From a virus: DNA of 25,267 bases. The stretch is from positions 1-25,267 of IMG/VR virus record IMGVR_UViG_3300006920_000221. One strand, given 5' to 3'. The notes beneath the pieces were generated by a model that saw only the letters and a program-made list of their open reading frames with translations, ran no database searches and was not told the origin of the DNA. The number at the start of each line of letters is the position of its first letter. Position 1 is the first letter of the stretch. Made by a program: the position numbers and the translations under genes. Below are positions 2 to 22,266 of this stretch, piece by piece.

Positions 2-1099
2 ATGGAATGGAACTACGAAGGATTTATTGACGAGTATGGAATTCCAGTCTTTACTACTCCTGACGTCGACAGACTTACACCAGACGGTGAATTAATAGAT
101 GTAGGCGTAATAGATAACTGGCAAAACGAAGTAGATGGTTTAAAAGACGATCAAGATGCTTTAAATGAATTTTACCGTCAGTTTCCTAGAACTACAGAGC
201 ACGCGTTTAGAGATGAAACAAAAAACAGTATATTTAACTTAGTTAAAATATACCAACAAATAGATTACAATGAAGAGATGACAAACACTCTTGGTATTAC
301 TACGGGTAATTTTCAATGGGTTAACGGTGTTAAAGATTCACAAGTAATATTTTATCCAGACCCAAAAGGTAGATTTAAAGTTAGTTGGGTTCCACCTCAA
401 CAACTTCAAAACAAAGTTGTACTTAAAAATGGTATTAAATATCCTGGTAACGAACACATGGGTGCTTTTGGTTGTGATAGTTACGATATATCAGGTACGG
501 TAGATGGGGTTGGGTCGAAAGGAGCTTTGCACGGGTTAACTAGATTTAGTATGGAGGATGCCCCAGCAAACAGTTTCTTTTTAGAATACTTGTCAAGACC
601 ACCAACGGCCGAGATGTTCTTCGAGGACGTTCTAATGGCTTTAGTATTTTATGGGATGCCTATACTCGCAGAGAACAATAAACCTCGTCTCCTGTATTAT
701 CTGAGACGTAGAGGATATAGAGGATTTAGTATGAATAGGCCGGACAAGATATGGAACAAATTATCTGTTGCAGAAAAAGAAGTAGGTGGAATACCTAACT
801 CTTCAGAAGACATCAAACAAGCTCACGCCGCAGCAATTGAGATGTATATACAAGATCACGTTGGAATGAAGCAAGATGGAACGTTCGGTGATTTGTATTT
901 CAATGAACTACTAAACGATTGGGCAAAGTTTGACATAAACAAAAGAACAAAGCATGATGCATCAATAAGTTCTGGTTTAGCTATTATGGCTAACAATAGA
1001 CATTTATATAGGCCAAATGCAGAGGTTAAAAAACCTCAACTAAATATAAACATTTCTAAGTATAGTAATACTGGAAGTAATTCACAAATAATCAAATAA
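2..1099 (+). CDS. terL: Terminase large subunit, C-terminal part (5' truncated by window edge)
   Basis: This is the nuclease half of the DNA-packaging motor that cuts concatemeric phage DNA and, with its ATPase half, pumps it through the portal. The visible 365 residues begin in the linker after the ATPase domain (FPRTTEHAFRDE at about residues 61-72). The RNase H-like nuclease follows. Candidate metal-binding acids, numbered in this fragment, are D159 (GCDSYD), E208/D209 (FFEDV) and D319 (KHDAS). The Walker A and B motifs are absent because the gene must begin upstream; the ATG at base 2 is probably internal. The stop lies 5 bases before the portal start, so the two are likely co-transcribed. 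The family assignment is firm; the true start cannot be seen. Confidence 0.92.
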   Translation: MEWNYEGFIDEYGIPVFTTPDVDRLTPDGELIDVGVIDNWQNEVDGLKDDQDALNEFYRQFPRTTEHAFRDETKNSIFNLVKIYQQIDYNEEMTNTLGITTGNFQWVNGVKDSQVIFYPDPKGRFKVSWVPPQQLQNKVVLKNGIKYPGNEHMGAFGCDSYDISGTVDGVGSKGALHGLTRFSMEDAPANSFFLEYLSRPPTAEMFFEDVLMALVFYGMPILAENNKPRLLYYLRRRGYRGFSMNRPDKIWNKLSVAEKEVGGIPNSSEDIKQAHAAAIEMYIQDHVGMKQDGTFGDLYFNELLNDWAKFDINKRTKHDASISSGLAIMANNRHLYRPNAEVKKPQLNINISKYSNTGSNSQIIK

Positions 1100-1104
1100 T
1101 AAAT

Positions 1105-3525
1105 ATGGCAGAGTCTGGCATTAAAAGTTATTTCCCGAGTCAAACAGTAGGTGATGCTGAAAAGTTAAGCTACGAATATGGTTTAAAGGTAGCTAAAGCT
1201 ATAGAGCAAGAGTGGTTTAACAACGATAGAAACACCAATAGATACACGGCTAATCACAATAATTTTCACAAATTAAGATTATACGCTAGAGGTGAACAAT
1301 CTATTAAAAAATATAAAGATGAATTATCTATTAACGGTGATTTATCTTATCTTAATTTAGACTGGAAACCAGTACCAATTATACCTAAGTTTGTAGATAT
1401 AGTTGTGAATGGTATTGCAGAAAGAACTTACGATATAAAAGCTTATTCTCAAGACCCTTTTGGTGTGTCAAAAAGAACAGAGTACATGGAGTCAATACTT
1501 GCCGACATGAGGTCTAAAGAAATGAATGAGTTCGTAATGGGTGCTTTTGAAATTAATCTTTATGAAAACGATAAAGATTCTTTACCAGAAACAGAGGAAG
1601 AGTTAGAGTTACACATGCAAATGACATATAAGCAGTCTGTTGAAATAGCTGAAGAACAAGCCTTAAACGTTTTGATGGATGGTAACAATTACGAGTTGAT
1701 TAAAAAAAGGTTTTATTACGATCTTGCTGTCTTAGGTATAGGCGCTACAAAAACAAGTTTCAACACGTCTGAAGGTGTAACTATTGATTATGTTAACCCA
1801 GCAGATTTAGTATACTCACACACTGACTCTCCTTACTTTGAAGACATATATTATGTTGGTGAGGTAAAAACAATTCCAGTTAACGAACTAGCAAAACAAT
1901 TCCCGCACTTAACAGAGTCTGATCTTAAAGAGATAATGGAAAACAAATCTAACAATAGATCAAATTACAACTCTAGAAACTCAACAGAAAAACAAGATAA
2001 CAATAGTATTCAAATCTTATACTTTAACTACAAGACTTACATGAACGAGGTGTATAAGATGAAACAAACTGGTTCTGGTGCGGATAAAATTATAGCTAAG
2101 GATGATTCGTTTAATCCACCAGAAGATATGGAAGGTGGGTACGCTAAAATGTTAAGATCTATAGAGTGTCTTTATGAAGGTGCTATTGTGCTAGGTACAG
2201 AAAGACTACTTAAGTGGGAAATGGCTAGAAATATGATGCGCCCTAAAAGTGATTTTACTAAGGTTAAAATGAACTATAGTATTGTAGCGCCTAGAATGTA
2301 CGACGGTAAAATAGAATCTTTAGTTAGTAGAATAACTGGTTTTGCTGATATGATTCAATTGACTCATTTAAAACTACAGCAAGTGTTATCTAGAATGGTG
2401 CCTGATGGTGTTTATTTAGATGCTGATGGTTTAGCTGAAATTGATTTAGGTAATGGAACAAACTATAATCCACAAGAAGCGTTAAACATGTTCTTTCAAA
2501 CAGGATCTGTTATTGGTAGAAGCTTTACAAGTGAGGGTGACATGAATCCAGGCAAAGTGCCTATTCAAGAAATTACATCTGGATCTGGTGGAAACAAAAT
2601 GCAAGCCCTTATTGGCAATTACAATTACTACTTGCAAATGATAAGAGATGTAACCGGGCTTAACGAAGCTAGAGATGGTAGTACTCCAGATAAAAACGCT
2701 TTAGTAGGCGTTCAAAAACTTGCCGCGGCTAACTCAAACACGGCAACTAGACATATTTTACAAGCTGGTTTATTTTTAACAGCACAAACAGCAGAGTGTT
2801 TGTCTCTTAGAATATCTGATATTATAGAACATTCACCTACAAAAAACGCTTTTATACAAGCAATAGGAGCTCACAACGTAGCGACGTTAGAAGAAATGTC
2901 ACAACTACATTTGTATGATTTTGGTATATTTATTGATCTAATGCCAGATGAAGAAGAAAAAGCAATGTTAGAAAACAATATACAAATGGCTTTACAACAA
3001 AAAAGTATAGAGTTAGAAGATGCTATTGATTTAAGGGATGTTAAAAACGTAAAGTTAGCTAATCAACTATTAAAGATTAGAAGAAAGAAAAAAGAAGAAA
3101 AAGATCAAGCTAGACAAGAGCAAATGATACAAGCTCAAGCTCAAGCGAATGCGCAAGCGCAGCAAGTGGCAGCTCAAGCAGAGGTTCAGAAAAACCAAGC
3201 ATTAACCCAAAATAACGCTCAATTAGAAACTATAAAAGCCGAACTTAATTCTCAAAAAATGACACAAGAGGTTGAGATGAAAAAAGAGTTGATGGCTTTA
3301 GAGTTCCAATACAACATGCAATTAAAAGGCATGGAGGTTGAAGGTGTTAAATCTAGAGAAAAAGAAAAAGAAGATCGTAAAGACGAAAGAACAAAGATAC
3401 AAGCGTCGCAGCAATCAGAAATGATTGAACAAAGAAACAGTGGAAAACCACCTAAAAACTTTGAATCCGCAGGTAATGATATACTAGGTGGAGGATTTGA
3501 TTTAGGTTCGTTTGATCCTAGTTAG
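1105..3525 (+). CDS. Portal protein
   Basis: This is probably the dodecameric head-tail portal through which DNA enters and leaves the capsid. At 806 residues it is in the long portal class seen in short-tailed phages. Portal-like features are the PVPIIPKFVDIVVNGI segment (about residues 88-103), the long central alpha/beta body, and a Gly/Ser loop followed by a helix-rich stretch with GLNEARDG (about residues 490-525). From about residue 640 to 770 the protein turns into a Lys/Glu then Gln/Ala-rich coiled coil, typical of a C-terminal barrel or crown. It sits directly after the terminase gene and before a scaffold-like gene, the standard order. The start ATG has the TAAATATGGC context with no Shine-Dalgarno. 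It is the only gene here ending in TAG, with a TAA two codons further on. Confidence 0.92.
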   Translation: MAESGIKSYFPSQTVGDAEKLSYEYGLKVAKAIEQEWFNNDRNTNRYTANHNNFHKLRLYARGEQSIKKYKDELSINGDLSYLNLDWKPVPIIPKFVDIVVNGIAERTYDIKAYSQDPFGVSKRTEYMESILADMRSKEMNEFVMGAFEINLYENDKDSLPETEEELELHMQMTYKQSVEIAEEQALNVLMDGNNYELIKKRFYYDLAVLGIGATKTSFNTSEGVTIDYVNPADLVYSHTDSPYFEDIYYVGEVKTIPVNELAKQFPHLTESDLKEIMENKSNNRSNYNSRNSTEKQDNNSIQILYFNYKTYMNEVYKMKQTGSGADKIIAKDDSFNPPEDMEGGYAKMLRSIECLYEGAIVLGTERLLKWEMARNMMRPKSDFTKVKMNYSIVAPRMYDGKIESLVSRITGFADMIQLTHLKLQQVLSRMVPDGVYLDADGLAEIDLGNGTNYNPQEALNMFFQTGSVIGRSFTSEGDMNPGKVPIQEITSGSGGNKMQALIGNYNYYLQMIRDVTGLNEARDGSTPDKNALVGVQKLAAANSNTATRHILQAGLFLTAQTAECLSLRISDIIEHSPTKNAFIQAIGAHNVATLEEMSQLHLYDFGIFIDLMPDEEEKAMLENNIQMALQQKSIELEDAIDLRDVKNVKLANQLLKIRRKKKEEKDQARQEQMIQAQAQANAQAQQVAAQAEVQKNQALTQNNAQLETIKAELNSQKMTQEVEMKKELMALEFQYNMQLKGMEVEGVKSREKEKEDRKDERTKIQASQQSEMIEQRNSGKPPKNFESAGNDILGGGFDLGSFDPS

Positions 3526-7449: not shown

Positions 7450-8172
7450 ATGATATTCGTAGATACAGTATACCAAAGGGTTTTAGCATTAGCTAACAAA
7501 GAGCAAAGAGGTTACATAACACCTCAAGAGTTTAATTTATTTGCTTGTCAAGCTCAGTTAGAAATAATAGAACAGTATTTTTACGATATAAATAGATTTG
7601 GTAGGTTTCATGGTAATGACACGGAATACTCTGACATGCTTAATTTGATTAACGAAAAAGTTTTAGAAATAACTACATCTGCAACATTGAGTGTAACAGC
7701 AAATACTGGTGTAGCATCTTTGCCAGATGATTTATACAAATTAGGTACAGTAATAATGGGTGGTGTTGAGGCTGACTTTATGAGTGCTAGTGAAGTTGTT
7801 AAGTTAAATAACTCAAAATTAACTAAACCTTATTTTACCGAAGGTATTAAAGGCGTTAGATCGCCCGTGTATACAAAACAGGCGGATAATATAACTTTAT
7901 TTCCACTTCCAACATCCACTTATTTACAAAGTCTAACTACATCTATAACGTATATTGAACAACCTAAGTGTCCTTATTGGGGTTATGTTGTTGTTGATGA
8001 AAAAGCTATGTATAACGAGGGCGCTTCAGTTAATTTTATATTACACGCTTCTGAAGAATCAGAGTTGGTTAATAGAATACTAGGTTTATCCGGTATTACA
8101 ATACAAAAACCAGAATTAACATCCGCTGCATTACAACTTGAGGGAACAAAACAACAAATTGAAAAACAATAA
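7450..8172 (+). CDS. Head-tail connector/ring protein (tail adaptor-like)
   Basis: This is probably the ring or adaptor that docks onto the portal at the start of the short tail. The 240-residue product opens with a helical segment, VYQRVLALANKEQRGYITPQ, then EFNLFACQAQLEIIEQYF. Such an N-terminus recurs in structural proteins of marine and crAss-like phages. A beta-rich C-terminal half follows (ATLSVTANTGVASLPDDLYKL, then ITLFPLP and TSITYIEQPKCPYWGYV), ending in a short Gln-rich helix. Its place after the capsid gene and before the second ring gene and nozzle matches the adaptor position in this phage type. The assignment rests on recognition of family style and synteny; no catalytic role is expected. 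Confidence 0.68.
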   Translation: MIFVDTVYQRVLALANKEQRGYITPQEFNLFACQAQLEIIEQYFYDINRFGRFHGNDTEYSDMLNLINEKVLEITTSATLSVTANTGVASLPDDLYKLGTVIMGGVEADFMSASEVVKLNNSKLTKPYFTEGIKGVRSPVYTKQADNITLFPLPTSTYLQSLTTSITYIEQPKCPYWGYVVVDEKAMYNEGASVNFILHASEESELVNRILGLSGITIQKPELTSAALQLEGTKQQIEKQ

Positions 8173-8176
8173 ATAA

Positions 8177-9553
8177 ATGGGATTACTATTAAACAATGGG
8201 GCGAGCGAAAACAGTTATTATTCAAAACCAGATGAATATGGAGACTATCAATTTGTTTCTTTACAAGATATAATAAACCAATTTATGGTAGCATACGTTG
8301 GTGAAGATAAAATTATATCTAAAATAAAAAAAACAGATGTTGCTTTTCACGCTCAAAGAGCAATGCAAGAATTATCTTTTGACACTTTTAAATCTTGCAA
8401 AGCGCAAGAGATTACGGTACCTGCTTCACTTCAAATGATTTTACCATACGACTATGTTAACTACACCAAAGTCAGTTGGGTGGATTCTGCTGGTATAAAA
8501 CATTTATTATACCCTACAAGTAAAACTTCAAATCCAAAACACCCGCAGGTTGATTCAAATGGAGACTTTTTAGGTCATAATAATAGATTAATAAGCTCTG
8601 GTGAGTTAATAAAGAATGGAAATTTTAATGGAGATAGTACTCACTGGAAGCTAAACCAGCAATGGGCAAACACAACTTTACCACCTATTACCACGGGAAC
8701 CATAACGACTTCAATTGTCGCAAACACTCTTGGTGATCCTGTGACTGGTTGGTTTTTCAGATCTGGTAGTATTGGTAATGTTATTCGTGGTTACGACATA
8801 CCGCAGTGGAATGGTATAAGGCAGATAGATCTTCCAATCATAGATGGTGAAGAATACAGGGTATCAGTTGATGTTAGTAATTATACTTCTGGGACGTTTA
8901 GTGTGGTTTTAATTGACGGGCAAGGTGATTTTGCTGACTTTGGAAGCATCACCGCGGACGGAACATTTACAGCTACAAAAACCGCTGGAACAACAAACAC
9001 CCCCTATAATATTAAGCAGCTTTTTATTAGAAATAAATCTGCAACACCTGGCAACATTACTATTGATAATGTATCTGTGACTAGAGTTGGAAGTGAAGAA
9101 ACATCTACTACGTGGTCTAACTACAAATCAACATCGCCATCTGAAAATCAAGACGATTATCAAGACGATACTTATTGGCCAGCGGAAGGATCAAGATATG
9201 GGTTAGACCCTCAACACGCTCAAACAAATGGTTCTTTTTATATAGATTGTAATTCAGGAAAAATTCATTTTAGCTCTAATATTAGTGGAAAAACTGTGAT
9301 CTTAGATTATATAAGCGATAGTCTTGGTACAGACGCTGAGATGCAAGTTCATAAGTTTGCAGAAGAAGCTATGTACAAGTGGATTGCTCACGCGGTTTTA
9401 GCGACTAGAGCAAACACTCCAGAGTATCTTGTAGCAAGATTTAAAAAAGAAAGGTTTGCAGCCACAAGAACAGCTAAGTTAAGATTATCAAATATTAAGC
9501 TAGAAGAGATAACTCAAATTTTAAGAGGTAAATCGAAACAAATAAAACATTAA
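8177..9553 (+). CDS. Second connector/ring protein with inserted CBM-like domain
   Basis: The ends of this 458-residue protein look like a tail connector. There is an N-terminal helical part (DIINQFMVAYVGEDKI, then DVAFHAQRAMQELSFDTFKS) and a beta segment with ILPYDYVNYTKVSWVD. The C-terminus is helical (MQVHKFAEEAMYKWIAHAV, then ARFKKERFAATRTAKLRLSN). Between them, about residues 143-305, lies a separate beta-sandwich resembling carbohydrate-binding modules of the CBM4/9 kind. It has ELIKNGNFNGDSTHWK at its start, GEEYRVSVDVSNYTSGTF in the middle and the classic ending NITIDNVSVTRV. The insertion is about a third of the protein. The ATG at 8177 follows the previous stop by 4 bases. The connector role is inferred from flanking sequence and gene order; the CBM-like fold is inferred from motif pattern. 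Confidence 0.68.
   Translation: MGLLLNNGASENSYYSKPDEYGDYQFVSLQDIINQFMVAYVGEDKIISKIKKTDVAFHAQRAMQELSFDTFKSCKAQEITVPASLQMILPYDYVNYTKVSWVDSAGIKHLLYPTSKTSNPKHPQVDSNGDFLGHNNRLISSGELIKNGNFNGDSTHWKLNQQWANTTLPPITTGTITTSIVANTLGDPVTGWFFRSGSIGNVIRGYDIPQWNGIRQIDLPIIDGEEYRVSVDVSNYTSGTFSVVLIDGQGDFADFGSITADGTFTATKTAGTTNTPYNIKQLFIRNKSATPGNITIDNVSVTRVGSEETSTTWSNYKSTSPSENQDDYQDDTYWPAEGSRYGLDPQHAQTNGSFYIDCNSGKIHFSSNISGKTVILDYISDSLGTDAEMQVHKFAEEAMYKWIAHAVLATRANTPEYLVARFKKERFAATRTAKLRLSNIKLEEITQILRGKSKQIKH
8603..9091 (+). other. CBM4/9-like domain inserted in the ring protein
   Basis: Residues about 143-305 of the ring protein. The pattern NGNF...W, then GEEYRVSVDVSN, then TIDNVSVT is the usual beginning, middle and end of carbohydrate-binding beta-sandwich modules. 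It would display a glycan-binding surface from the tail collar. No enzyme motif is seen. Confidence 0.55.
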
Positions 9554-9557
9554 TTAA

Positions 9558-12500
9558 ATGCCAGAGTTAAAACACAATTTTGTACAAGGTCGAATGAACA
9601 AAGATCTTGATGAAAGGATTGTTCCTAACGGCGAGTATAGAGACGCTACAAATATACAAGTATCGTCTTCTGAAGACTCAGACGTTGGAACTATACAAAA
9701 TATACTAGGTAACGTTTTAGTAGATAGCCAAAATCTTTACCCTGAGGACGCGGCGTGTATTGCCACTATTGCAGATGAAAAAAATAATAAAATATATTTT
9801 TTTGTACAAGGAAAATATAAAGATCCTTCTGATTACTTTATAGACGGGGATTATAGTAACTTTTCTTCTTTTAGAGATTTAATAATTGAATATAATCAAC
9901 CTTCAGATCTAACGTCTGTAGGCTATTTAGAGCCTGTTTTTGTAGATATTTACGGTGCTATTTGTCACTTAAATGTAGAGCCGGTATACCAATCGCTATG
10001 GACGTCAAACAAATACACTTTAAACATACCAACAGAAGGAACTGCGCAAGAACAAACAGCGGTTGTAAAAAAAGGTATGGAAGTTTCTATCTATGATCCG
10101 ATTGGTGGTGTTTACAGCACACACAAAGTTATTAACTCTCAATTATCATCAGAGTTTATAGCTGGCACACCGGGTAGCGATAAATTAGTTGAAGTTGAAC
10201 TTGACAAAGCTATAGTTGGTATAAATGCGCAAATGCAACTTTCGTTTTCTAGCCCTAAAGTATTGTTTCCTTGGGATTTTAATGAGGCTAGCATTAGCTA
10301 TATAACTGGAATAAACATAATTGATGATTTATTATTTTGGACAGATAATTATGGTGAGCCTAAAAAAATAAACATAAAACACGGTAAAAAAGGAACAGTA
10401 TCTGTTGTCGGATTACCCCCGTTTCCAACCTCAATAGTTCACGAAGAACAATTTAACTATGACAACGTTGCATCGAATTTTTTGCCAAACAATTATATTG
10501 CTGAATACAGGGCTCAACCAGTCGAAGAACAACATATAACTGTTATAAAAAAATCTCCTAAAACTGCCCCTACTCTAGAAATGCACACCAACAGGGAGGA
10601 TGGTATCAATTACTCAGGCTTACTAACAATAACTACACCCGCGTTTATTAACGATAGTGACATACTAAATAGTTCAGGTAATAGTCATGCTGTTAATTAC
10701 GATTTTTCACCATATTCTATTGGTGACACTATATATTTAAGAATAAAATCTGACTTAGACGGTACCACTACTTTCAATCTTACAGAGTGGGAAACGTCTA
10801 TATCGCTAGGTATAAACCCAGCCGTTGTGTTGAAGGAATATACAGATAGTGGCACGCAACCTTCTGTACCGGTTACGGATTATAGAATAAAAGGTAACGT
10901 TACAGCTTGGGCTAACGCTAATTATGATTCAGCAAATGGTGATGTAAAAGTAGCAATTGTAATAACTTCAATAGATGGCTTTCCACCTACAGCTAATATA
11001 AGTACTGGAAACCGTGATTATGCTATAGACACTTTTTTAGATGAAGAAAAACTGTTTGAGTTTAAGTTTCCTAGGTTTGCTTATAGATGGAGATATAAAG
11101 ACGGTGAGTACTCTTGTTTTTCTCCATTTTCAGAAATAGCTTTTTTACCTGGAACGTTTGATTACCACCCTAAAAAAGGTTATAATCTAGGTATGGTTAA
11201 TAGGTTAAAGTATGTTGACATATATAACTTTTTTAACAGAGATCATACGCCAGACGACGTTGTTGAAATAGATATACTCTATAAAGACGAAAACTCAACA
11301 AACATACATGTTGTAAAAACTATAAAGTCTTCAGATTTTATATACATTCCATCAATTGCCACCAATGTTAACCACTGGGAGTGGAACTCTTTTAGACTAT
11401 CTTCAGAAACAGTAGAATCTACCGTTGCTTCAAATCAACTATTAAGACCGTTTGACAATGTTCCTAAAAAGGCGTTGTCACAAGAAGTTGTTGGTAATAG
11501 AATTGTCTACGGTAATTATTTACAAAACTTCAACTTATTAGAAAGCTTAGATCCAGAAGAACCGTATAATTTATCTAGCTTTAACTTTTTACTAGAATCA
11601 AACGATATACCATATTCTTTTTCAGGTGTTAAATCTATAAAGTCGCTACGAGAATATCAACTTGGCGTTGTGTTTACAGACGAGTATGACAGACAAACAC
11701 CAGTTATATCTAACGCAACAGCAACGGTTAAGCTAGATAAATCATATTCTTGGAGGTCAAATAACTTTTCTGTATCATTTAATCAATCATATCCAGTTAA
11801 CATGGATAGGTTCAAGTTTTTTATAAAAGAAACAGCAGAAGAATATTACAACATGGCTATGGATCGTTTTTATGACGCTGAAGATGGTAATATTTGGTTG
11901 GCATTTGCGTCTTCTGATAGAAACAAAATAGATATAGACACGTTTTTAATTCTTAAAAAAGGTTTAGATGAAGGAGTGCAGGTTACTGAAACCGCAAGAT
12001 ACAAAGTTTTGGCTATTGAAAACGAAGCCCCAGACTTTATTAAAACATCTAAGATATTAATATCAGAAGAATCACACTCACTAACGTTAAATGATATTTT
12101 TGGAACATCAATGTCTAGTGCTCCTGGTTTAAATGATAGCTCTTTTAGTGTTAACTACGATGTTTTTCATGGTACTAGTGGTGCAGATATGCACGAAATA
12201 AGCGATACGCTGTACGTTGAGTTTGCTCAACTATCAAGTGACCAGGTTTCTAATAGGTACGAAGTTACTGAATTAACCTGTGATTGGGACGGGGATGGTT
12301 CTACTATGCCTGGTAGTAAGTATCATTTTAGAATAAAAGGTATTTTTAAAAGCGATGTTTCTTTTATAACAGATGATGCTACAGGTCTTAATTCTACGAG
12401 TATAACTCCAGGTACAATAATGCGAGTATACAGGTATAAAGTAGAAAACAAACCACAGTTTGATGGTAGATTTTTTGTTAAAATATTAATTGATGATGTT

Positions 12501-15500
12501 TTTTCTAAATATATAAAAAAAGTATACGAAGAGACTGGTCTTGATTATAAAGTTGTTGCCTCTACAAGGTTGTATAAATTACCAGAAGATTTTTCTGATA
12601 ACGTTTGGGGAAATACTCCTGGTGTAGGTTTTGACTCTGGAAACCTTGCTTACAACGTGTTGGCACACTACAAAACTCAGTTTAAGTCTTGGTTTCAAGA
12701 TTATAAATTTAAAAATGTCGCAACATCACAACTTGGAAACAGCTTTATATATGAGGGCTCTGAACAGCATGATGATAATTATTGGAGTTGGGCAAATAGT
12801 CATTGTGAAACTACGTACGGTTGGACTATGTATTATCATTGTAGCACTGATCTAACTACTGGTAATTTTTATCAACATTCTAACGCAACTAATTTTAACA
12901 CTACACCACCACCGGCATATTGGTTTGTAGATGAGGGTATTTTCAGGGGTCAAAGATGGGATGATGACATGTACGTAAAGTTTGGTTATGTAAGTCCTAG
13001 TTCAAGTGTTTATCAATTTAGTGATGACACTTCTTTTGACAGAAATGGTAACGGTCTTGTTCCTGATCCTGTTAACGAAAACTGGACTTTAGATCTTGGT
13101 TTTGGTGGAATATGGAGCCAAGAGTGGAATTGGTACCAGCCAGGTACTTCTGGTGATAAGCATATAGAAAGTGAGAGTAGCGCTGTTATAAGTGGTAGTG
13201 GTTCGTTTATTGCTAATAATGATTGGCACCATACTTACGAGAATATTGTTGATTTTTACAAAATAGGTGTTACAGGTGGTAATCCAAAACACGTTAATCA
13301 ATCAGACATTGTTTCTAGATTAACTCCTGGTCAAAGATTTAGATTTGCTGAAGATCCTTTAAAAACAATATACACTTTAAAAGCTGGTGTTGACCAAAAC
13401 AATAGAATTAGATACAGAAGGAACGACGAAAAAATGCCTGAGGACCCAGGTAATCCTGGAGATTACATGGTGGAAAACATTGTTGGAGATTGGGCGGATA
13501 GCACGAGTGGAGGTAATTCTCTTTATTTTTCCGGTGATTTTATTCACCCAGCAGCTCAACACGATAGTAGATTTGGAACGAGTGAAAGAATAAATACGGC
13601 ATTTACAAACCCCGCAAACTTTACGAAAAATTATGGTTTAACTGTTGAGCCAGAAATAACTTGGGATCCTACAACTGGTACTGGAGGTTTAATAACTGGT
13701 GGTTTTGATTTAACATTAACCACGCCAACTAGTGGTTTAACTTGCTTAAGCTGTGGGAACGCTAGTGTACCAAACGACTTTCAGTTAGTTCTTGATTCTA
13801 TACTAGGATTAGACGCTACAACTGGAAATAACATACAACTAACGGTTGGTATGGCCTTGTACTCTTACGTGCTCACGGGCACTAGCACGACAATATCACT
13901 TCCGGCTACTGGAACTACTCAGCAAATAATGCTAATAAAAACCATTGTATATGACAATGCAACTGACAAGTACCACGTAGGATTAACTGGCAGTAGGTAT
14001 CTACACACAAGTTCTCAAAATTTTGTGCCAAAAATAAACACTAGTTTAAAGTTTGGACAACCAATAATGAATGGTTTTAGTCCTATATTCATAGAAAACT
14101 ATCATCACAATATAGCCAGCGTAGCGGATAGCGATGTTCTTGTTAACTCTGTTGGTTATACTTTAGAGTTTATCGAACCTATTGATGATATTGAAATAAT
14201 GCCAGATGACCCGGCTGTTTGGGAAACTGAGCCAAAAGAAAACACACCTTTAGATATATATTACGAGGCAACTGGATCCTTGCCAACTAAGTTAAATTCT
14301 AGCAATTTTAGTAGCTTACTAAGTGTAGGTACTTATACGGGTTCAGCATTTAGCTCGCTTAATGTGTTTCACGCAGGTACTGGTGTTACTGAAGAAAACA
14401 TTGGTTTTGCTACTGCGGCAGACGGTTTTTCAGGTCCTGGTTTAGGATTAACACTTGTCCAAGCGGGAGGTGCTTCGGCTAACCCATGTGTTGAACCTGG
14501 TGGTTGTGTTGGTGGTACTGTACCTGAGTTTGTTATTGGCGACGAGGTTATCATACCTAGCCACAATGTTAACGTACACATACCAATTATTGGTTTTGAT
14601 GGTGTTGTAAATGTTGGGGGTGATGATTACGCTGAGTATGTTATTGTAGATGTTAATTTATTTAGAAATGGTACTTTTAAACCAAACTGGTTTAACTGCT
14701 ATTCTTTTGGTAATGGGGTTGAGTCTAATAGAATTAGAGATAACTTCAACCTACCATATATAAAAAATGGCGTTAAGGTTTCTACTACGCTAGCTACACA
14801 ATACAAAGAAGAGCGTAGAAAATATGGATTAATATACTCTGGTATATACAACTCTATATCTGGTATAAACAACTTAAATCAATTTATACAAGCTGAAAAA
14901 ATAACTAAAGACGTAAACCCGTCTTATGGTAGTATTCAAAAGTTATTTACTAGAGACTCGGATTTAGTTACTCTTTGTGAAGATAAAGTTTTAAGAATAC
15001 TAGCAAACAAAGACGCTGTCTACAACGCCGATGGTAACCCACAGTTGACAGCTACAAATAATGTTTTAGGACAAACCATACCTTTTACTGGTGATTACGG
15101 TATATCAACAAACCCAGAATCTTTTGCATCACAATCGTATAGGGTGTATTTTACAGATAGAGTTAGGGGCGCGGTTTTAAGGTTATCACGTGATGGCTTA
15201 ACACCTATATCCGATCATGGTATGAGAGATTGGTTTAGAGATAGAATGAAAATATCAAGTGCGGCTAACAACGAGTTTATCAGTGAAGCTAAAATACTTG
15301 GTAGTTATGATGACAGGCAAGAAGAGTACAACGTAACGTTTTCACCAACGTGGAACGCTGCTGATTTTACTCCTAGAACTAACTTTAATAATAGTCACGA
15401 AGGGTTAAACACCGAACAAAACAATAGTTATCATTCTGAAGCTATTACAGTTTCTTTTAAAGAATCTTCTAAAGGTTGGGTTAGTTTTAAATCTTTTGTT

Positions 15501-18458
15501 CCAGAGCATGCTGTTAGTGGTAATAATGATTATTTTACTTTCAAAAACAGTAGGATGTGGAAGCACCACACTCCTAAAACAGAACTTGGTAAAGTTGTTA
15601 ATTACAATACTTTTTACGGGGATGATAACTTTTTTATATCTACGTTCAACGTGCTTTTAAATGGAGCGCCAGATGTTGTTAAATCATTTAAAACATTAAA
15701 CTACGAAGGTTCTAAATCTAAATCAATTAAAAATATAGAAGACGATCAATATCACAATCTAAAAAACAAAAAAGGTTGGCATGTTGACGCAATGTTTACA
15801 AACAAAGAAAAAGGTAGTTTAAAAGAGTTTATAGAAAAAGAAGGTAAGTGGTTTAATTATATTACTGGAAAACCAATATCAACTAGTGACACTGGTCATT
15901 TAGTAGATGGTTTTGATGCTGGCGCTTTTGCTGTCCAAGGACAAGGGTTTTTAACTGTAAGCCCTGTGGTACTAGGTATTTTAGGTTGTACTGATAATGG
16001 TCTTAATCTAAATGGAGCAGGTGTTGTTAACGACGCTAATGGAGATAATTTAGCAGCGTTTAACTATAATCCACTCGCAACAATTGATGATAGTAGTTGT
16101 ATTGATGTGGTCGAGGGCTGTACAAATCCCAGTGCCGCTAACTATGACGCTAATGCAAATACAGATGATGGTTCTTGTATTATATATGGTTGTATGGATC
16201 CTACTGCAAATAACTATGATCCTGACGCAACTGCTGATGATGGTTCTTGTACTTACATAGTTTATGGATGTACTGATCCTACTATGTTTAATTATGATCC
16301 GAATGCTGGGGTTGATGATGGTTCTTGTATTGCAGTTGTACTAGGATGTATGAATCCCACGGCTACAAATTATGATCCATTAGCTAACACTGATGATGGT
16401 TCTTGTTGTTTAATTTCAGGTTGTACAGATTTAACCGCATGTAACTATAACCCTCAAGCTTGTTATGATGATGGAAGTTGTAATTTTTGCAATGAGGATC
16501 CTATCTCATCTGGATTCCCTCAAGCTATTAACTTTGATGGTTACGAAGCTGATGGGGTAACACCTTTAGCGTCATGTAATGCTGGGTGTGTGTATTGCGT
16601 ACACGATTTAAACTCTCTTATTATTACTCCTAGTGGTACTAGTATATCATTGCAGTGGACAAACCCACCGACTAACACGATGCCTTTGTACTCGCCTATT
16701 ACAAGCATTGTTGTAGAATACGAAAACTTAACAACTTCGGGACCAACTACAACTATCAATGTAACGCCAACAGCTGCTGGGGTGCAAAACAGTTATAACA
16801 TAACAGGTTTGGATCCAATGTCAGATTATGAAATTTCTGTTGTATCTACGTGTAATAATACGGCGTTTGTTGATGGGGTTACTTCTACCGTTACTACTAC
16901 GGGTTCTGGAGGTTGTACGGATGGAGCAGGAACTTATAACAACGTTATAACACCTAGTGGCGCTCCTGGAACATGGGGCGCTTGTAACTATGATCCTACG
17001 GCTACTGTTGATGATAATAGTTGTGAATACACATCTTGTGCTGGCTGTACAAATAGCTCGTATCTTGAATATAATATTTCAGGTACTGGTTTTGACGCGG
17101 CAATAAATCAACCTTTATCTTCGGTTGCACCTAGTTTAGGATATTGTAACACTCTTATACAGCTTGGATGTACAGATGCTAATGCGTTTAATTATGATGT
17201 TAACGCTACTGTAGATGATGGTTCTTGTTGTTATGTTGCTGGGTGTATGGATGTGTGCGCTAACAATTACAATCCAAACGCTTGTTATGATAATAATTCA
17301 TGTACTTACGGTTTGTTGTGTGATGGTATTTTTGCTACTATTAACAGCGCTAGTGACCAAGCTGTTCCTATTGATGAAAATACTGGTGATTCTAATGGTA
17401 ATAGTATTTCTAATGTTGCTTTTAATTTTGCCGAACTTCCAAACTACTCTGAATTAGATGTATGGAGAGAAGGCGTGCTACCAACAAGCATATCAAATTT
17501 ACCACAAACTTGTGGTGATTGGTATAAGTTTTATCAACCAGTAAGCAATAAGTCTGATACAACCGATGGGACTGGTATACTTGGAGGACTTGGTAATAAC
17601 GAAACGTGGAGATTAAGAGGACCCGTGAACCCTGGGTTTAATAAAATTTTGTTTGAAAGTGGTTGTTGGGGAGAGAGTGCTAATGGCTCTGTTGTTGACT
17701 ACGAAGACGCATCGTCTGCTAACGGTGTGTATCAAGCTTTCAACGCACCTACAACTGATAATTTTGAGTTAATTTTAGTTGTTGATAACTGGATAGGGAG
17801 TGGTGGTGGACTAGCGTTTCCAAGACCCGATGGTCACTTTCAGTTTCTAGTTTGTAATGGTGATTACCCCTCAGGCGTGCAAGGCGGTATTCAAGGTCAG
17901 GCATACGAGGGTTGTATATACATTGACAACCCAATAATGGGTGGACCAGAATTTCCAGTACAAATGATGAATGATACTGGTTTAACAGGGGTGTCAAGAT
18001 TCGCGCCTGATGGAGTTGAATGGAGTTGGAGCCCTAGTGCAAACTGCTCTGGTAGTGCTCCTTGTACAGGTCCAGCTCAAGCTGGAGTAGATTTAAACAC
18101 TTATAGCCGTCAAAAAAGTGTTAAAGTAGGTTTTCAAGGTATGGGGCCAAATACTATAATTTATATAGCTTATTACTCTCAGCACCGATTCTATCGTGAA
18201 AACGGCGATAGAGCTTACACTACTGATCAAACTTTTTTCGGCGCTACTACAACAACAGGTCAGTCTAGCCGTGCTTGTGAGGTATCAAGTATCCAGATTG
18301 TGAACGCGGATACCGGTCCATGTAACCCTGGTTCTGGAAATGGTGGTCCAGTTAATACCGGTCCTGTTTTAGGAATTGCTAATCCTCAGCTATCAGACTC
18401 GAATGTATCTAACTTACAAGCTAAAGCACTTTCAAATAACAACTATCAAAACAAATAA
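9558..18458 (+). CDS. Giant tail nozzle (stabilization-type) protein fused to a Cys-repeat/FN3 adhesin
   Basis: This 2966-residue protein has two parts. Residues 1 to about 2140 resemble the tail nozzle/muzzle ('stabilization protein', P22 gp10-like role) of crAss-like and marine podoviruses. It opens with KHNFVQGRMNKDLDERIVPN (residues 5-24), with LLFWTDNYGEPKKINI (258-273), QEVVGNRIVYGNYL (642-655), YFTDRVRGAVLRLS (1864-1877) and EGKWFNYITGK (about 2095-2105) further on. Several segments, especially about 1040-1560, appear to be large insertions. Residues 2143-2582 hold Cys-rich 21-residue repeats interrupted by an FN3 domain, and 2583-2966 is an unrecognised domain likely to be at the tip. 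Known nozzles are far shorter (T7 gp12 has 794 residues, P22 gp10 has 472). The nozzle part would form the DNA exit tube and the extension would bind the host. There is no frameshift or internal stop. The start follows the previous stop by 4 bases. Confidence 0.82.
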   Translation: MPELKHNFVQGRMNKDLDERIVPNGEYRDATNIQVSSSEDSDVGTIQNILGNVLVDSQNLYPEDAACIATIADEKNNKIYFFVQGKYKDPSDYFIDGDYSNFSSFRDLIIEYNQPSDLTSVGYLEPVFVDIYGAICHLNVEPVYQSLWTSNKYTLNIPTEGTAQEQTAVVKKGMEVSIYDPIGGVYSTHKVINSQLSSEFIAGTPGSDKLVEVELDKAIVGINAQMQLSFSSPKVLFPWDFNEASISYITGINIIDDLLFWTDNYGEPKKINIKHGKKGTVSVVGLPPFPTSIVHEEQFNYDNVASNFLPNNYIAEYRAQPVEEQHITVIKKSPKTAPTLEMHTNREDGINYSGLLTITTPAFINDSDILNSSGNSHAVNYDFSPYSIGDTIYLRIKSDLDGTTTFNLTEWETSISLGINPAVVLKEYTDSGTQPSVPVTDYRIKGNVTAWANANYDSANGDVKVAIVITSIDGFPPTANISTGNRDYAIDTFLDEEKLFEFKFPRFAYRWRYKDGEYSCFSPFSEIAFLPGTFDYHPKKGYNLGMVNRLKYVDIYNFFNRDHTPDDVVEIDILYKDENSTNIHVVKTIKSSDFIYIPSIATNVNHWEWNSFRLSSETVESTVASNQLLRPFDNVPKKALSQEVVGNRIVYGNYLQNFNLLESLDPEEPYNLSSFNFLLESNDIPYSFSGVKSIKSLREYQLGVVFTDEYDRQTPVISNATATVKLDKSYSWRSNNFSVSFNQSYPVNMDRFKFFIKETAEEYYNMAMDRFYDAEDGNIWLAFASSDRNKIDIDTFLILKKGLDEGVQVTETARYKVLAIENEAPDFIKTSKILISEESHSLTLNDIFGTSMSSAPGLNDSSFSVNYDVFHGTSGADMHEISDTLYVEFAQLSSDQVSNRYEVTELTCDWDGDGSTMPGSKYHFRIKGIFKSDVSFITDDATGLNSTSITPGTIMRVYRYKVENKPQFDGRFFVKILIDDVFSKYIKKVYEETGLDYKVVASTRLYKLPEDFSDNVWGNTPGVGFDSGNLAYNVLAHYKTQFKSWFQDYKFKNVATSQLGNSFIYEGSEQHDDNYWSWANSHCETTYGWTMYYHCSTDLTTGNFYQHSNATNFNTTPPPAYWFVDEGIFRGQRWDDDMYVKFGYVSPSSSVYQFSDDTSFDRNGNGLVPDPVNENWTLDLGFGGIWSQEWNWYQPGTSGDKHIESESSAVISGSGSFIANNDWHHTYENIVDFYKIGVTGGNPKHVNQSDIVSRLTPGQRFRFAEDPLKTIYTLKAGVDQNNRIRYRRNDEKMPEDPGNPGDYMVENIVGDWADSTSGGNSLYFSGDFIHPAAQHDSRFGTSERINTAFTNPANFTKNYGLTVEPEITWDPTTGTGGLITGGFDLTLTTPTSGLTCLSCGNASVPNDFQLVLDSILGLDATTGNNIQLTVGMALYSYVLTGTSTTISLPATGTTQQIMLIKTIVYDNATDKYHVGLTGSRYLHTSSQNFVPKINTSLKFGQPIMNGFSPIFIENYHHNIASVADSDVLVNSVGYTLEFIEPIDDIEIMPDDPAVWETEPKENTPLDIYYEATGSLPTKLNSSNFSSLLSVGTYTGSAFSSLNVFHAGTGVTEENIGFATAADGFSGPGLGLTLVQAGGASANPCVEPGGCVGGTVPEFVIGDEVIIPSHNVNVHIPIIGFDGVVNVGGDDYAEYVIVDVNLFRNGTFKPNWFNCYSFGNGVESNRIRDNFNLPYIKNGVKVSTTLATQYKEERRKYGLIYSGIYNSISGINNLNQFIQAEKITKDVNPSYGSIQKLFTRDSDLVTLCEDKVLRILANKDAVYNADGNPQLTATNNVLGQTIPFTGDYGISTNPESFASQSYRVYFTDRVRGAVLRLSRDGLTPISDHGMRDWFRDRMKISSAANNEFISEAKILGSYDDRQEEYNVTFSPTWNAADFTPRTNFNNSHEGLNTEQNNSYHSEAITVSFKESSKGWVSFKSFVPEHAVSGNNDYFTFKNSRMWKHHTPKTELGKVVNYNTFYGDDNFFISTFNVLLNGAPDVVKSFKTLNYEGSKSKSIKNIEDDQYHNLKNKKGWHVDAMFTNKEKGSLKEFIEKEGKWFNYITGKPISTSDTGHLVDGFDAGAFAVQGQGFLTVSPVVLGILGCTDNGLNLNGAGVVNDANGDNLAAFNYNPLATIDDSSCIDVVEGCTNPSAANYDANANTDDGSCIIYGCMDPTANNYDPDATADDGSCTYIVYGCTDPTMFNYDPNAGVDDGSCIAVVLGCMNPTATNYDPLANTDDGSCCLISGCTDLTACNYNPQACYDDGSCNFCNEDPISSGFPQAINFDGYEADGVTPLASCNAGCVYCVHDLNSLIITPSGTSISLQWTNPPTNTMPLYSPITSIVVEYENLTTSGPTTTINVTPTAAGVQNSYNITGLDPMSDYEISVVSTCNNTAFVDGVTSTVTTTGSGGCTDGAGTYNNVITPSGAPGTWGACNYDPTATVDDNSCEYTSCAGCTNSSYLEYNISGTGFDAAINQPLSSVAPSLGYCNTLIQLGCTDANAFNYDVNATVDDGSCCYVAGCMDVCANNYNPNACYDNNSCTYGLLCDGIFATINSASDQAVPIDENTGDSNGNSISNVAFNFAELPNYSELDVWREGVLPTSISNLPQTCGDWYKFYQPVSNKSDTTDGTGILGGLGNNETWRLRGPVNPGFNKILFESGCWGESANGSVVDYEDASSANGVYQAFNAPTTDNFELILVVDNWIGSGGGLAFPRPDGHFQFLVCNGDYPSGVQGGIQGQAYEGCIYIDNPIMGGPEFPVQMMNDTGLTGVSRFAPDGVEWSWSPSANCSGSAPCTGPAQAGVDLNTYSRQKSVKVGFQGMGPNTIIYIAYYSQHRFYRENGDRAYTTDQTFFGATTTTGQSSRACEVSSIQIVNADTGPCNPGSGNGGPVNTGPVLGIANPQLSDSNVSNLQAKALSNNNYQNK
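15984..17303 (+). repeat. Cys-rich 21-residue tandem repeats in the nozzle protein
   Basis: Seven units are exactly 63 bases: 16116-16178, 16188-16250, 16266-16328, 16344-16406, 16419-16481, 17166-17228 and 17241-17303. Longer variants span 15984-16100 and 16911-17024. Each begins GC[TM][DN], has a central NY[DN]xxA core and ends DD or DN, G/S/N, SC, so every unit is framed by two Cys. Linkers are 3-5 residues. The 15-mer GATGATGGTTCTTGT recurs exactly five times (16164, 16236, 16314, 16392, 17214). The repeats resemble those of secreted flavobacterial proteins. Confidence 0.92.
16611..16904 (+). other. Fibronectin type III domain within the repeat region
   Basis: Residues about 2352-2449 of the nozzle protein show FN3 hallmarks. 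These are a strand B Trp (W2367 in ISLQWTNPP), then the ITGLDPMSDYEISVVSTC segment with L2418 and Y2424. It splits the Cys repeats into two blocks. FN3 domains are common spacers or adhesion modules in phage tail proteins and in bacterial secreted proteins. Confidence 0.78.
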
Positions 18459-20737: not shown

Positions 20738-21160
20738 ATGGAAAGCATTACAATAAGACCTATAAAAGAGGAGGATTATAAACTTATAGACAATTGGTGG
20801 AAAATGATAGATAAATCCCCACCACCAAGAAACCTACTACCAGAAAACGGCTTACATGGACTTATGGCTTGTAAAGATGATAGGCCTATAGTTTGCACCT
20901 ACTTGTATTTAACAAACTCTAAGTTTGGTTATTGTGATTACATGATAAGCGATACTAGTTACAAAGGTAGAGATAGATTCAACATAGTGTTAAAATTAAT
21001 GGACATGTCAATTGGAACAGCTTGGAAATTAGGTTGTGAAGATTTTTGGTTTATAACAAAAAGTAAAGGTATGTTAAAGAGATGTAAAGCTCTTGGAGTA
21101 AAAGTTTCAGAGGATCCATATTATTTAATATGCTCTTCAAATTCAAAAAAAGAAATATAA
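20738..21160 (+). CDS. GNAT-like acetyltransferase family protein
   Basis: At 140 residues this is the size of a single small GNAT domain. It opens with ITIRPIKEEDYKLIDNWW, the usual first strand and helix of GNAT proteins. A central beta segment follows (PIVCTYLYLTNSKFGYCDYM), then KGRDRFNIVLKLMDMSIGTA in the place of the acetyl-CoA-binding motif A helix. A late strand and helix, CEDFWFITKSKGMLKRCKALGV, resembles motif B with the typical late LxKxGF-like turn. The classic Q/RxxGxG/A loop is replaced by KGRDRF, so cofactor binding is uncertain. It is embedded in the late structural operon, which suggests a virion-linked or late role such as modifying a virion or host protein. The fold is likely; activity is unproven. 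Confidence 0.65.
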   Translation: MESITIRPIKEEDYKLIDNWWKMIDKSPPPRNLLPENGLHGLMACKDDRPIVCTYLYLTNSKFGYCDYMISDTSYKGRDRFNIVLKLMDMSIGTAWKLGCEDFWFITKSKGMLKRCKALGVKVSEDPYYLICSSNSKKEI

Positions 21161-21162
21161 AT

Positions 21163-22266
21163 ATGGCAAAAAATAAAAATACAGCACCCAGTCCTTTTCA
21201 CAAGAAAGGAAAGAATGAGGGTGATCAAAAAAGATCAGGATTATTTGGTGATTGGAAAGATGACGCTTATGGTGAAGATGAATGGGATATCAAAAGCACT
21301 ACAGCTAAGATGGATACATCTTTTTCAGATTTTCAAGGTTTAAAAGACATTGCTGGTCAAAATCTTTGGTCTGGCGCTAGAAACATGATGAACATCAAAA
21401 ATAACTTTGGTGGTGTTCAAACTGATTTTGACAATCAATACGCGGATGTAACAAATACATTCGAGGGCATGAAGAATAGATACGCTGGAATGGAAAACAC
21501 CATGGAAGACCTTACCGTTAACCAACAACAAGCTCAATTTCAAAAAGAAATGGCTGCGCAACAACAAGCGGATACATTGTCTCAATTAGGTGGTGCTGCT
21601 GGTGGGTCTGGTATCGCTGGTCTCGCTCAAGCAATGGCTGGAGCACAATCTCAACAAAGACAAGCGGCAGGCGCTTCTATTGGTCAACAAGAATCAGCTA
21701 ATCAAATGGCAGCAGCACAAGCGGGAATGAGTATACAACAAATGGAAGCTTCTGGCGCTTCAGCTGTAGATATGGCCAAAGCACAGGGCGGTATGCAGAC
21801 TCAATTAGCACAAGCGCAAGGCGCCCAAGCAGCTATGCAATTAGGGTCACAAGCTGAGTTAGCGCAAGCTCAGGGGTTACAACAAGGCCAAATAGCAAGA
21901 GGTCAAGGAGCGATGGACGCGCAAAAAATACGATTACAAGGTGCTGCAGACTCTAGAGATTTACAAATAGGCATGCAACAAGCGGAACTATCTTATTTAG
22001 CTGGACTTAAAGAAGCCGCTGAGGCAAATAAAGACGCTGATACAGCTGGTAAGTCTGATCGTAGATTAAAGAAAAACATAAACAAAATAGGTCAATCAGC
22101 TAGTGGATTAAACATATATTCTTTTGAATATAAAAACCCATTAGATGGTGAGGGATTATTCCAAGGTGTGATGTCTGATGAAGTACCACAAGAAGCTGTT
22201 ATTAACAACGGAGAGTACGACATGGTAAACTATGGTATGTTAGACGTAGAATTTAAACAAATATAA
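21163..22266 (+). CDS. Gln/Ala-rich coiled-coil protein with C-terminal S74 intramolecular chaperone domain
   Basis: The 367-residue product has a charged N-terminus, then a long Gln/Ala/Gly-rich helical region (about 110-290, with many AQ steps). The C-terminal 70 residues have the peptidase S74 pattern: SDRRLKKNINKIG beginning at S298 (with K303), then GLNIYSFEY, then GVMSDEVPQEAV and VNYGMLDVEF. In endosialidase-type fibres this domain trimerises the chain and then cuts itself off at the Ser-Asp, using the Ser/Lys pair. Here it is attached to a helical rod rather than a beta fibre. The ATG at 21163 is chosen. It has the recurring TAAATATGGC context, 2 bases after the previous stop, whereas an in-frame ATG at 21130 would overlap the GNAT gene. 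Confidence 0.78.
   Translation: MAKNKNTAPSPFHKKGKNEGDQKRSGLFGDWKDDAYGEDEWDIKSTTAKMDTSFSDFQGLKDIAGQNLWSGARNMMNIKNNFGGVQTDFDNQYADVTNTFEGMKNRYAGMENTMEDLTVNQQQAQFQKEMAAQQQADTLSQLGGAAGGSGIAGLAQAMAGAQSQQRQAAGASIGQQESANQMAAAQAGMSIQQMEASGASAVDMAKAQGGMQTQLAQAQGAQAAMQLGSQAELAQAQGLQQGQIARGQGAMDAQKIRLQGAADSRDLQIGMQQAELSYLAGLKEAAEANKDADTAGKSDRRLKKNINKIGQSASGLNIYSFEYKNPLDGEGLFQGVMSDEVPQEAVINNGEYDMVNYGMLDVEFKQI

Follow-up and report, generated by a model that had tools for sequence, protein, structure and literature searches.

In siphophages, carbohydrate-binding modules (CBMs) inserted into the Dit ring correlate with host polysaccharide and raise adsorption to EPS- or polysaccharide-coated hosts (PMC8540738, PMC10688798). 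CBMs have also been described on siphophage neck passage structures and tail tubes, and decoration of virion parts besides the tip is therefore already known (PMC10688798). Tail fibres and spikes are a further point of reference, as their domain mosaicism is among the strongest (PMC10684548). In crAss001, the ring proteins of the tail barrel form dodecamers, and the rings R1 and R2 hold the docking hubs of the fibres (PMC10172136).

The ring protein described here, ring B, is encoded in a 25,267-nucleotide stretch of viral DNA (IMG/VR record IMGVR_UViG_3300006920_000221; hereafter the window) and shares features with each of these systems. Like the evolved Dit proteins of Lactobacillus J-1, skunaviruses, and OE33PA, it is a ring-forming virion protein that carries a CBM-like domain (often CBM4-like in evolved Dit) on linkers and has "classical", uninterrupted counterparts. 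However, evolved Dit forms the hexameric ring at the distal tail of siphophages, whereas ring B would be a head-proximal podovirus ring, and its slot, unlike that of evolved Dit, accepts at least two unrelated folds. Ring B may thus work like an evolved Dit without being classed as one; its scaffold matches podovirus ring proteins. With mosaic fibres and spikes it has in common a conserved anchor and exchanged, putative contact domains, although here the exchanged domain is flanked on both sides by conserved halves of a barrel ring protein. The preliminary description of this locus had held that few such cases are known among connector proteins. Given that CBMs have been published as inserts in Dit and as decorations of neck passage structures and of tail tubes, this holds in a narrower form: our literature search, which had partial coverage, found no description of CBM inserts in podovirus ring proteins and, within the same coverage, no earlier account of unrelated domains being accommodated in one slot of a podovirus barrel ring.

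The features of the locus that are relevant for the following are:

7450-8172, + strand: ring A, a second ring/adaptor protein of 240 aa (PHROG 14543, E 3e-31; profile match to gp34)
8177-9553, + strand: ring/adaptor protein with a domain insert inside (ring B), an ORF of 458 aa (PHROG 13977)
8177-8560, + strand: N-terminal half of the ring B scaffold, residues 1-128; helices 29-40 and 52-71 plus strands in the AlphaFold2 model
8525-8557, + strand: flexible linker ahead of the insert, residues 117-127; pLDDT below 50 at 117-122 and 125-127
8567-9100, + strand: inserted segment, residues 131-308 as delimited by alignment; 178 aa long, compared to 13-26 aa in named insert-free phages
8597-9088, + strand: CBM4/16/22/70-like beta-sandwich, residues 141-304 (AlphaFold2, structural comparison, and profile search against PDB sequences)
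9092-9217, + strand: flexible linker behind the insert, residues 306-347; pLDDT below 50
9101-9550, + strand: C-terminal half of the ring B scaffold, residues 309-458; strands plus three helices (alignment, AlphaFold2)
9558-18458, + strand: giant muzzle-like tail protein of 2966 aa (PHROG 14478, E 8e-122; crAss_MUZ_C, PF25729)

The ring B scaffold matches PHROG 13977 (virion structural protein) with an E-value of 8.8e-44, and its N-terminal half was conserved in all 75 distinct homologues of our first alignment. Given that the structural matches of the window model were filled with CBMs, the fold of the ring was read from the model of L018, a relative with 83% scaffold identity to the window and with an unrelated insert that gives weaker matches. 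VIA-align comparison of residues 18-437 of this model returned the KHP30 adaptor (Z 10.4), ring protein 1 (gp43) of crAss001 (Z 10.4; chain 7qog_B), and the adaptors of N4 (Z 8.8) and SU10 (Z 8.1), all of which share the predicted scaffold fold of helices plus a beta-sandwich. Gene order agrees with this assignment: gp43 is encoded directly ahead of the crAss001 muzzle gene, gp44, and ring B lies directly upstream of the muzzle-like giant gene. At the same time, gp43 comprises 236 aa, carries no added domain, and has no detectable sequence similarity to ring B. The scaffold profile retrieved nothing from PDB sequences up to an E-value of 10, and sequence and profile comparison with crAss gp34, gp35, gp40, and gp43 gave no match. 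The link to the crAss rings is one of predicted fold and gene order, and not of sequence. As part of the explanation developed below, ring B is taken to be the portal-end, R1-like ring of a podovirus tail barrel, and by analogy to crAss001 it would be present in twelve copies per virion.

The neighbouring genes are in keeping with a tail-barrel locus. The profile of ring A matches crAss001 gp34 (ring 4/5; 90%, E 1.5e-6), while its match to SU10_adaptor (E 0.001) remains below the cut-off. In the giant protein, crAss_MUZ_C is recognized at residues 2015-2103 with an E-value of 1.5e-4, which is under the curated cut-off. This protein is long, with 2966 aa compared to roughly 950-1550 aa in named relatives, and contains an fn3 domain and, in its C-terminal third, several cysteine-containing repeats with the pattern CxDxxAxNYDPxAxxDDGSC. 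Further downstream, the gene at 21130-22266 has a weak Peptidase_S74 match (chaperone of endosialidase) near the C-terminus of its product (E 2.4e-4, just below the cut-off); it probably encodes a fibre or a spike that carries a self-cleaving chaperone.

The domain inside ring B was originally described as a CBM4/9-like sandwich at residues 143-305, a numbering that corresponds to 8603-9091 when checked against the 458-aa ORF. Structure prediction bears out this description. The AlphaFold2 model, computed from 51 aligned sequences, shows a confident beta-sandwich (pLDDT 76-96, mostly 91-96, for 10-residue blocks between 201 and 300), and residues 141-304 match CBM4-2 (Z 12.2), CBM16 (Z 12.1), CBM70 (Z 11.8), and CBM22 (Z 11.1) among solved structures. 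Together with CBM61 and similar modules, these were recovered by Foldseek and VIA-align with Z-scores of 10-12. Sequence profiles agree: searching PDB sequences with a profile of all inserts except those of the unrelated type B (see below) retrieved the CBM70 of a hyaluronate lyase with an E-value of 2.5e-9 and the CenC CBM4 with one of 4e-5. The profile of type A, the group of the window insert, retrieved the same two with E-values of 6e-7 and about 1e-3, respectively. The insert thus shares the beta-sandwich, as well as a profile match, with CBM4, CBM16, CBM22, and CBM70 modules. Unlike these, however, it has no enzyme attached, and by itself it matches Pfam CBM_4_9 weakly (E 0.034; 15.0 bits compared to a curated cut-off of 25.9). 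We therefore refer to it as a confidently predicted CBM-like beta-sandwich with a galactose-binding-like fold and do not file it as a member of CBM_4_9. Searched alone, the window insert had no match in named phages, and in IMG/VR its sole match was a near-identical contig of the window. Binding of glycan by this domain would follow by analogy to the CBMs; the same fold also occurs outside sugar-binding modules, as illustrated by HpiC1 cyclases and meprin among its structural matches.

Comparison with relatives shows that the domain is an insertion. The window has its gene order (portal, unknown, capsid-like, unknown, ring A, ring B, giant gene) in common with Maribacter phage Panino, Cellulophaga phages phi38:1 and Calle_1, Flavobacterium elemo phages, and ctfjg026. 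The ring B homologues of Panino (290 aa), phi38:1 (283 aa), elemo (286 aa), and ctfjg026 (307 aa) lack the insert, and the segment between residues 130 and 308 measures 13-26 aa in these proteins, as opposed to 178 aa in the window. A profile scan of IMG/VR with the scaffold yielded at least 591 relatives, of which 80 were kept; dozens of the kept relatives that were examined have no insert at the window site and nearly all of these measure 283-308 aa, with a longer N-terminal part in four. The existence of these homologues, including those of Maribacter, Cellulophaga, and Flavobacterium phages, shows that the interruption is real, as the preliminary description had proposed for a head-tail ring protein: the equivalent gene, at the equivalent position, is uninterrupted. 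The opposite reading, in which all homologues carry the segment as an integral part of the connector fold, is ruled out by the same phages and loci.

The CBM-like domain is one of several occupants of this position. The close relatives of the window in IMG/VR comprise 80 loci, equivalent to 70 distinct proteins, and each of the 70 carries an insert of 142-246 aa at one and the same junction. BLAST grouping divides the inserts into type A (CBM-like, including the window; 22), type B (32), type C (13; a longer type), and two further groups of two and one. Profile comparison detects no similarity between types A and B, and at most a weak link between A and C, yet A and C have end motifs in common (NGxF near the start and IDNxS near the end). 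Types C, D, and E may thus be distant jelly-roll relatives of A, as judged from these motifs, whereas type B is clearly separate. The confident model of a type B insert, that of L018, consists of an OB-like barrel, resembling the insertion of T5 Dit, and a small beta domain resembling a small protein of Arthrobacter phage Bridgette; searched alone, type B had no match in named phages. Mean pairwise identity is 0.69 for the scaffolds and 0.20 for the inserts. Given that close relatives hold quite different domains at the same spot, the ring has the appearance of a socket in which domains for surface contact can be exchanged, and a CBM in a ring protein, the form in which the locus was first described, is one state of a modular position. 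Type B, the commonest insert, is not CBM-like, and on grounds of fold, glycan binding can therefore not be what all occupants of the slot have in common. Some relatives have CBM-like domains in the giant protein as well, and L068 has two of them in ring A, which is thereby extended to 582 aa (normally about 240 aa; L068:3243-4991), indicating that both ring proteins can be decorated.

Inserts have been exchanged repeatedly. On a scaffold tree built without the insert columns, the insert-bearing proteins occupy one side of a single branch (SH-aLRT 99) and no insert-free protein is found there; with all 70 on the same side of this well-supported branch, the slot has been kept filled while its content changed. 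The tree implies at least 15 changes of insert type when types A, B, and C are considered and 19 when every group is included, counts that are approximate because many inner branches are weakly supported; strongly supported branches by themselves force three to four changes each for types A and B. In AU tests, a single clade was rejected for type A (p-AU 0.0016) and marginally for type B (p-AU 0.048), which rules out that the CBM type arose once and then diversified by drift. Individual pairs illustrate the process in both directions: L018 and L032 have inserts that are 93% identical on scaffolds that are 84% identical, while the scaffolds of L013 and L025 are 91% identical and their inserts 24%. 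Between the window and L018, the four genes upstream are 95, 96, 97, and 89% identical (with partial portal coverage in L018), ring A drops to 45%, the N- and C-terminal halves of ring B reach 78% and 87% around an insert without any match, and the giant protein retains 74% over its first 60 residues, followed by 27-38%. Nucleotide identity falls at the same places as protein identity, and the divergence between these two phages thus forms a block reaching from ring A into the giant gene. Across relatives, phages with similar inserts also tend to have similar giant proteins and distal parts of ring A, an association that is weak but goes beyond what scaffold similarity accounts for (partial Mantel r 0.09-0.13, p 0.001-0.007).

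Taken together, we consider it reasonably probable that the R1-like ring acts as a socket for a tethered and exchangeable host-contact domain. A loop of the scaffold, probably facing outward, would be the constant site at which a domain of 140-250 aa is held on a flexible tether, a position that in the window phage would be filled by the CBM4/9-like sandwich. About twelve copies arranged around the barrel could then bind polysaccharide of the host surface or capsule weakly but with avidity, and support adsorption before or during engagement of the muzzle and the tail fibres. The socket would be refilled by recombination, probably between homologous stretches of the conserved flanking scaffold, and the contact domain would change jointly with the neighbouring ring A and the muzzle-like protein.

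Contact with the host need not be the function of the insert, and one could imagine that it serves as a docking platform for the hub proteins of tail fibres, in which case exchange of the insert would go with exchange of the fibre set and the insert itself would not touch the host. Fold and gene order do point to R1, which contacts the hubs in crAss001 (PMC10172136), and changes of insert are accompanied by changes in ring A and the giant protein; however, docking should call for a conserved face and short, rigid linkers, and the inserts include unrelated folds on linkers modelled with low confidence. Insert-free relatives also possess the full set of tail genes, and the CBM-like type is found inside the giant protein and ring A, too, making a docking function unlikely in our view. 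The insert might alternatively be a structural decoration that stabilizes the neck or packs onto the capsid vertex, with no host contact and with variation arising by drift. Such add-on domains are common in virions, and in type B the OB-like half resembles the insertion domains found in Dit and in tail-tube proteins, with the second half resembling the Bridgette protein. Yet drift does not account for unrelated domains at one junction, nor for inserts whose identity is at chance level between phages that are 89-97% identical upstream, and long flexible tethers are better suited to a domain that reaches out than to a cement; we regard mere decoration as rather improbable. A fixed socket, a flexible tether, a CBM-like filling among unrelated ones, and exchange in company with tail proteins all fit host contact better than a structural role. 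Finally, the insert could be neutral or selfish and simply be tolerated by a permissive loop, the length of which varies among insert-free named phages as well (13-26 aa between residues 130 and 308). That every one of the 70 insert-bearing relatives falls on one well-supported side of the tree, where no empty slot occurs, argues for a slot that stays filled with changing content and renders neutrality very doubtful.

The host-contact reading has implications beyond this locus. For podoviruses, the determinants of host range are commonly looked for in fibres, spikes, and the tail tip. Should the barrel ring carry an exchangeable contact domain, attempts to predict the hosts of uncultured marine Bacteroidota phages ought to take the slot into account, too. 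More tentatively, in a widely distributed group of podoviruses of Bacteroidota, the head-proximal collar ring could be a standard socket for adhesion domains of unrelated fold that are recombined together with ring A and the muzzle, and the collar, rather than the fibres or tip only, could set which surface polysaccharides are held. The many insert types offer a ready set of natural modules for testing, and pairs of insert-free and insert-bearing rings make the question of a contact domain directly testable.

The window phage is marine and its host probably a member of the Bacteroidota. The hosts of the named relatives are Flavobacteriia, and one relative with a type A insert, L175, sits in a metagenome bin of Sphingobacteriales; bin membership does not prove the host, though, as some relatives are found in bins of unrelated organisms. 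Three of these (L188, CP070801.1 884444-897301; L176; L181) belong to records named Aenigmatarchaeota, Maricaulis, and Woesearchaeota, one of them inside a 1.05 Mb "chromosome", and given the Flavobacteriia hosts of the named phages, such placements probably reflect contamination during binning or assembly. The scaffold of ring B also has a second insertion site: in a sister group that has nothing at the window site (L109:5497-6915, L122:5692-6864, L148:5695-6864, and L177 near 2450-3322), about 90-170 aa are added near the N-terminus, between a YY motif and a GxY-Y motif.
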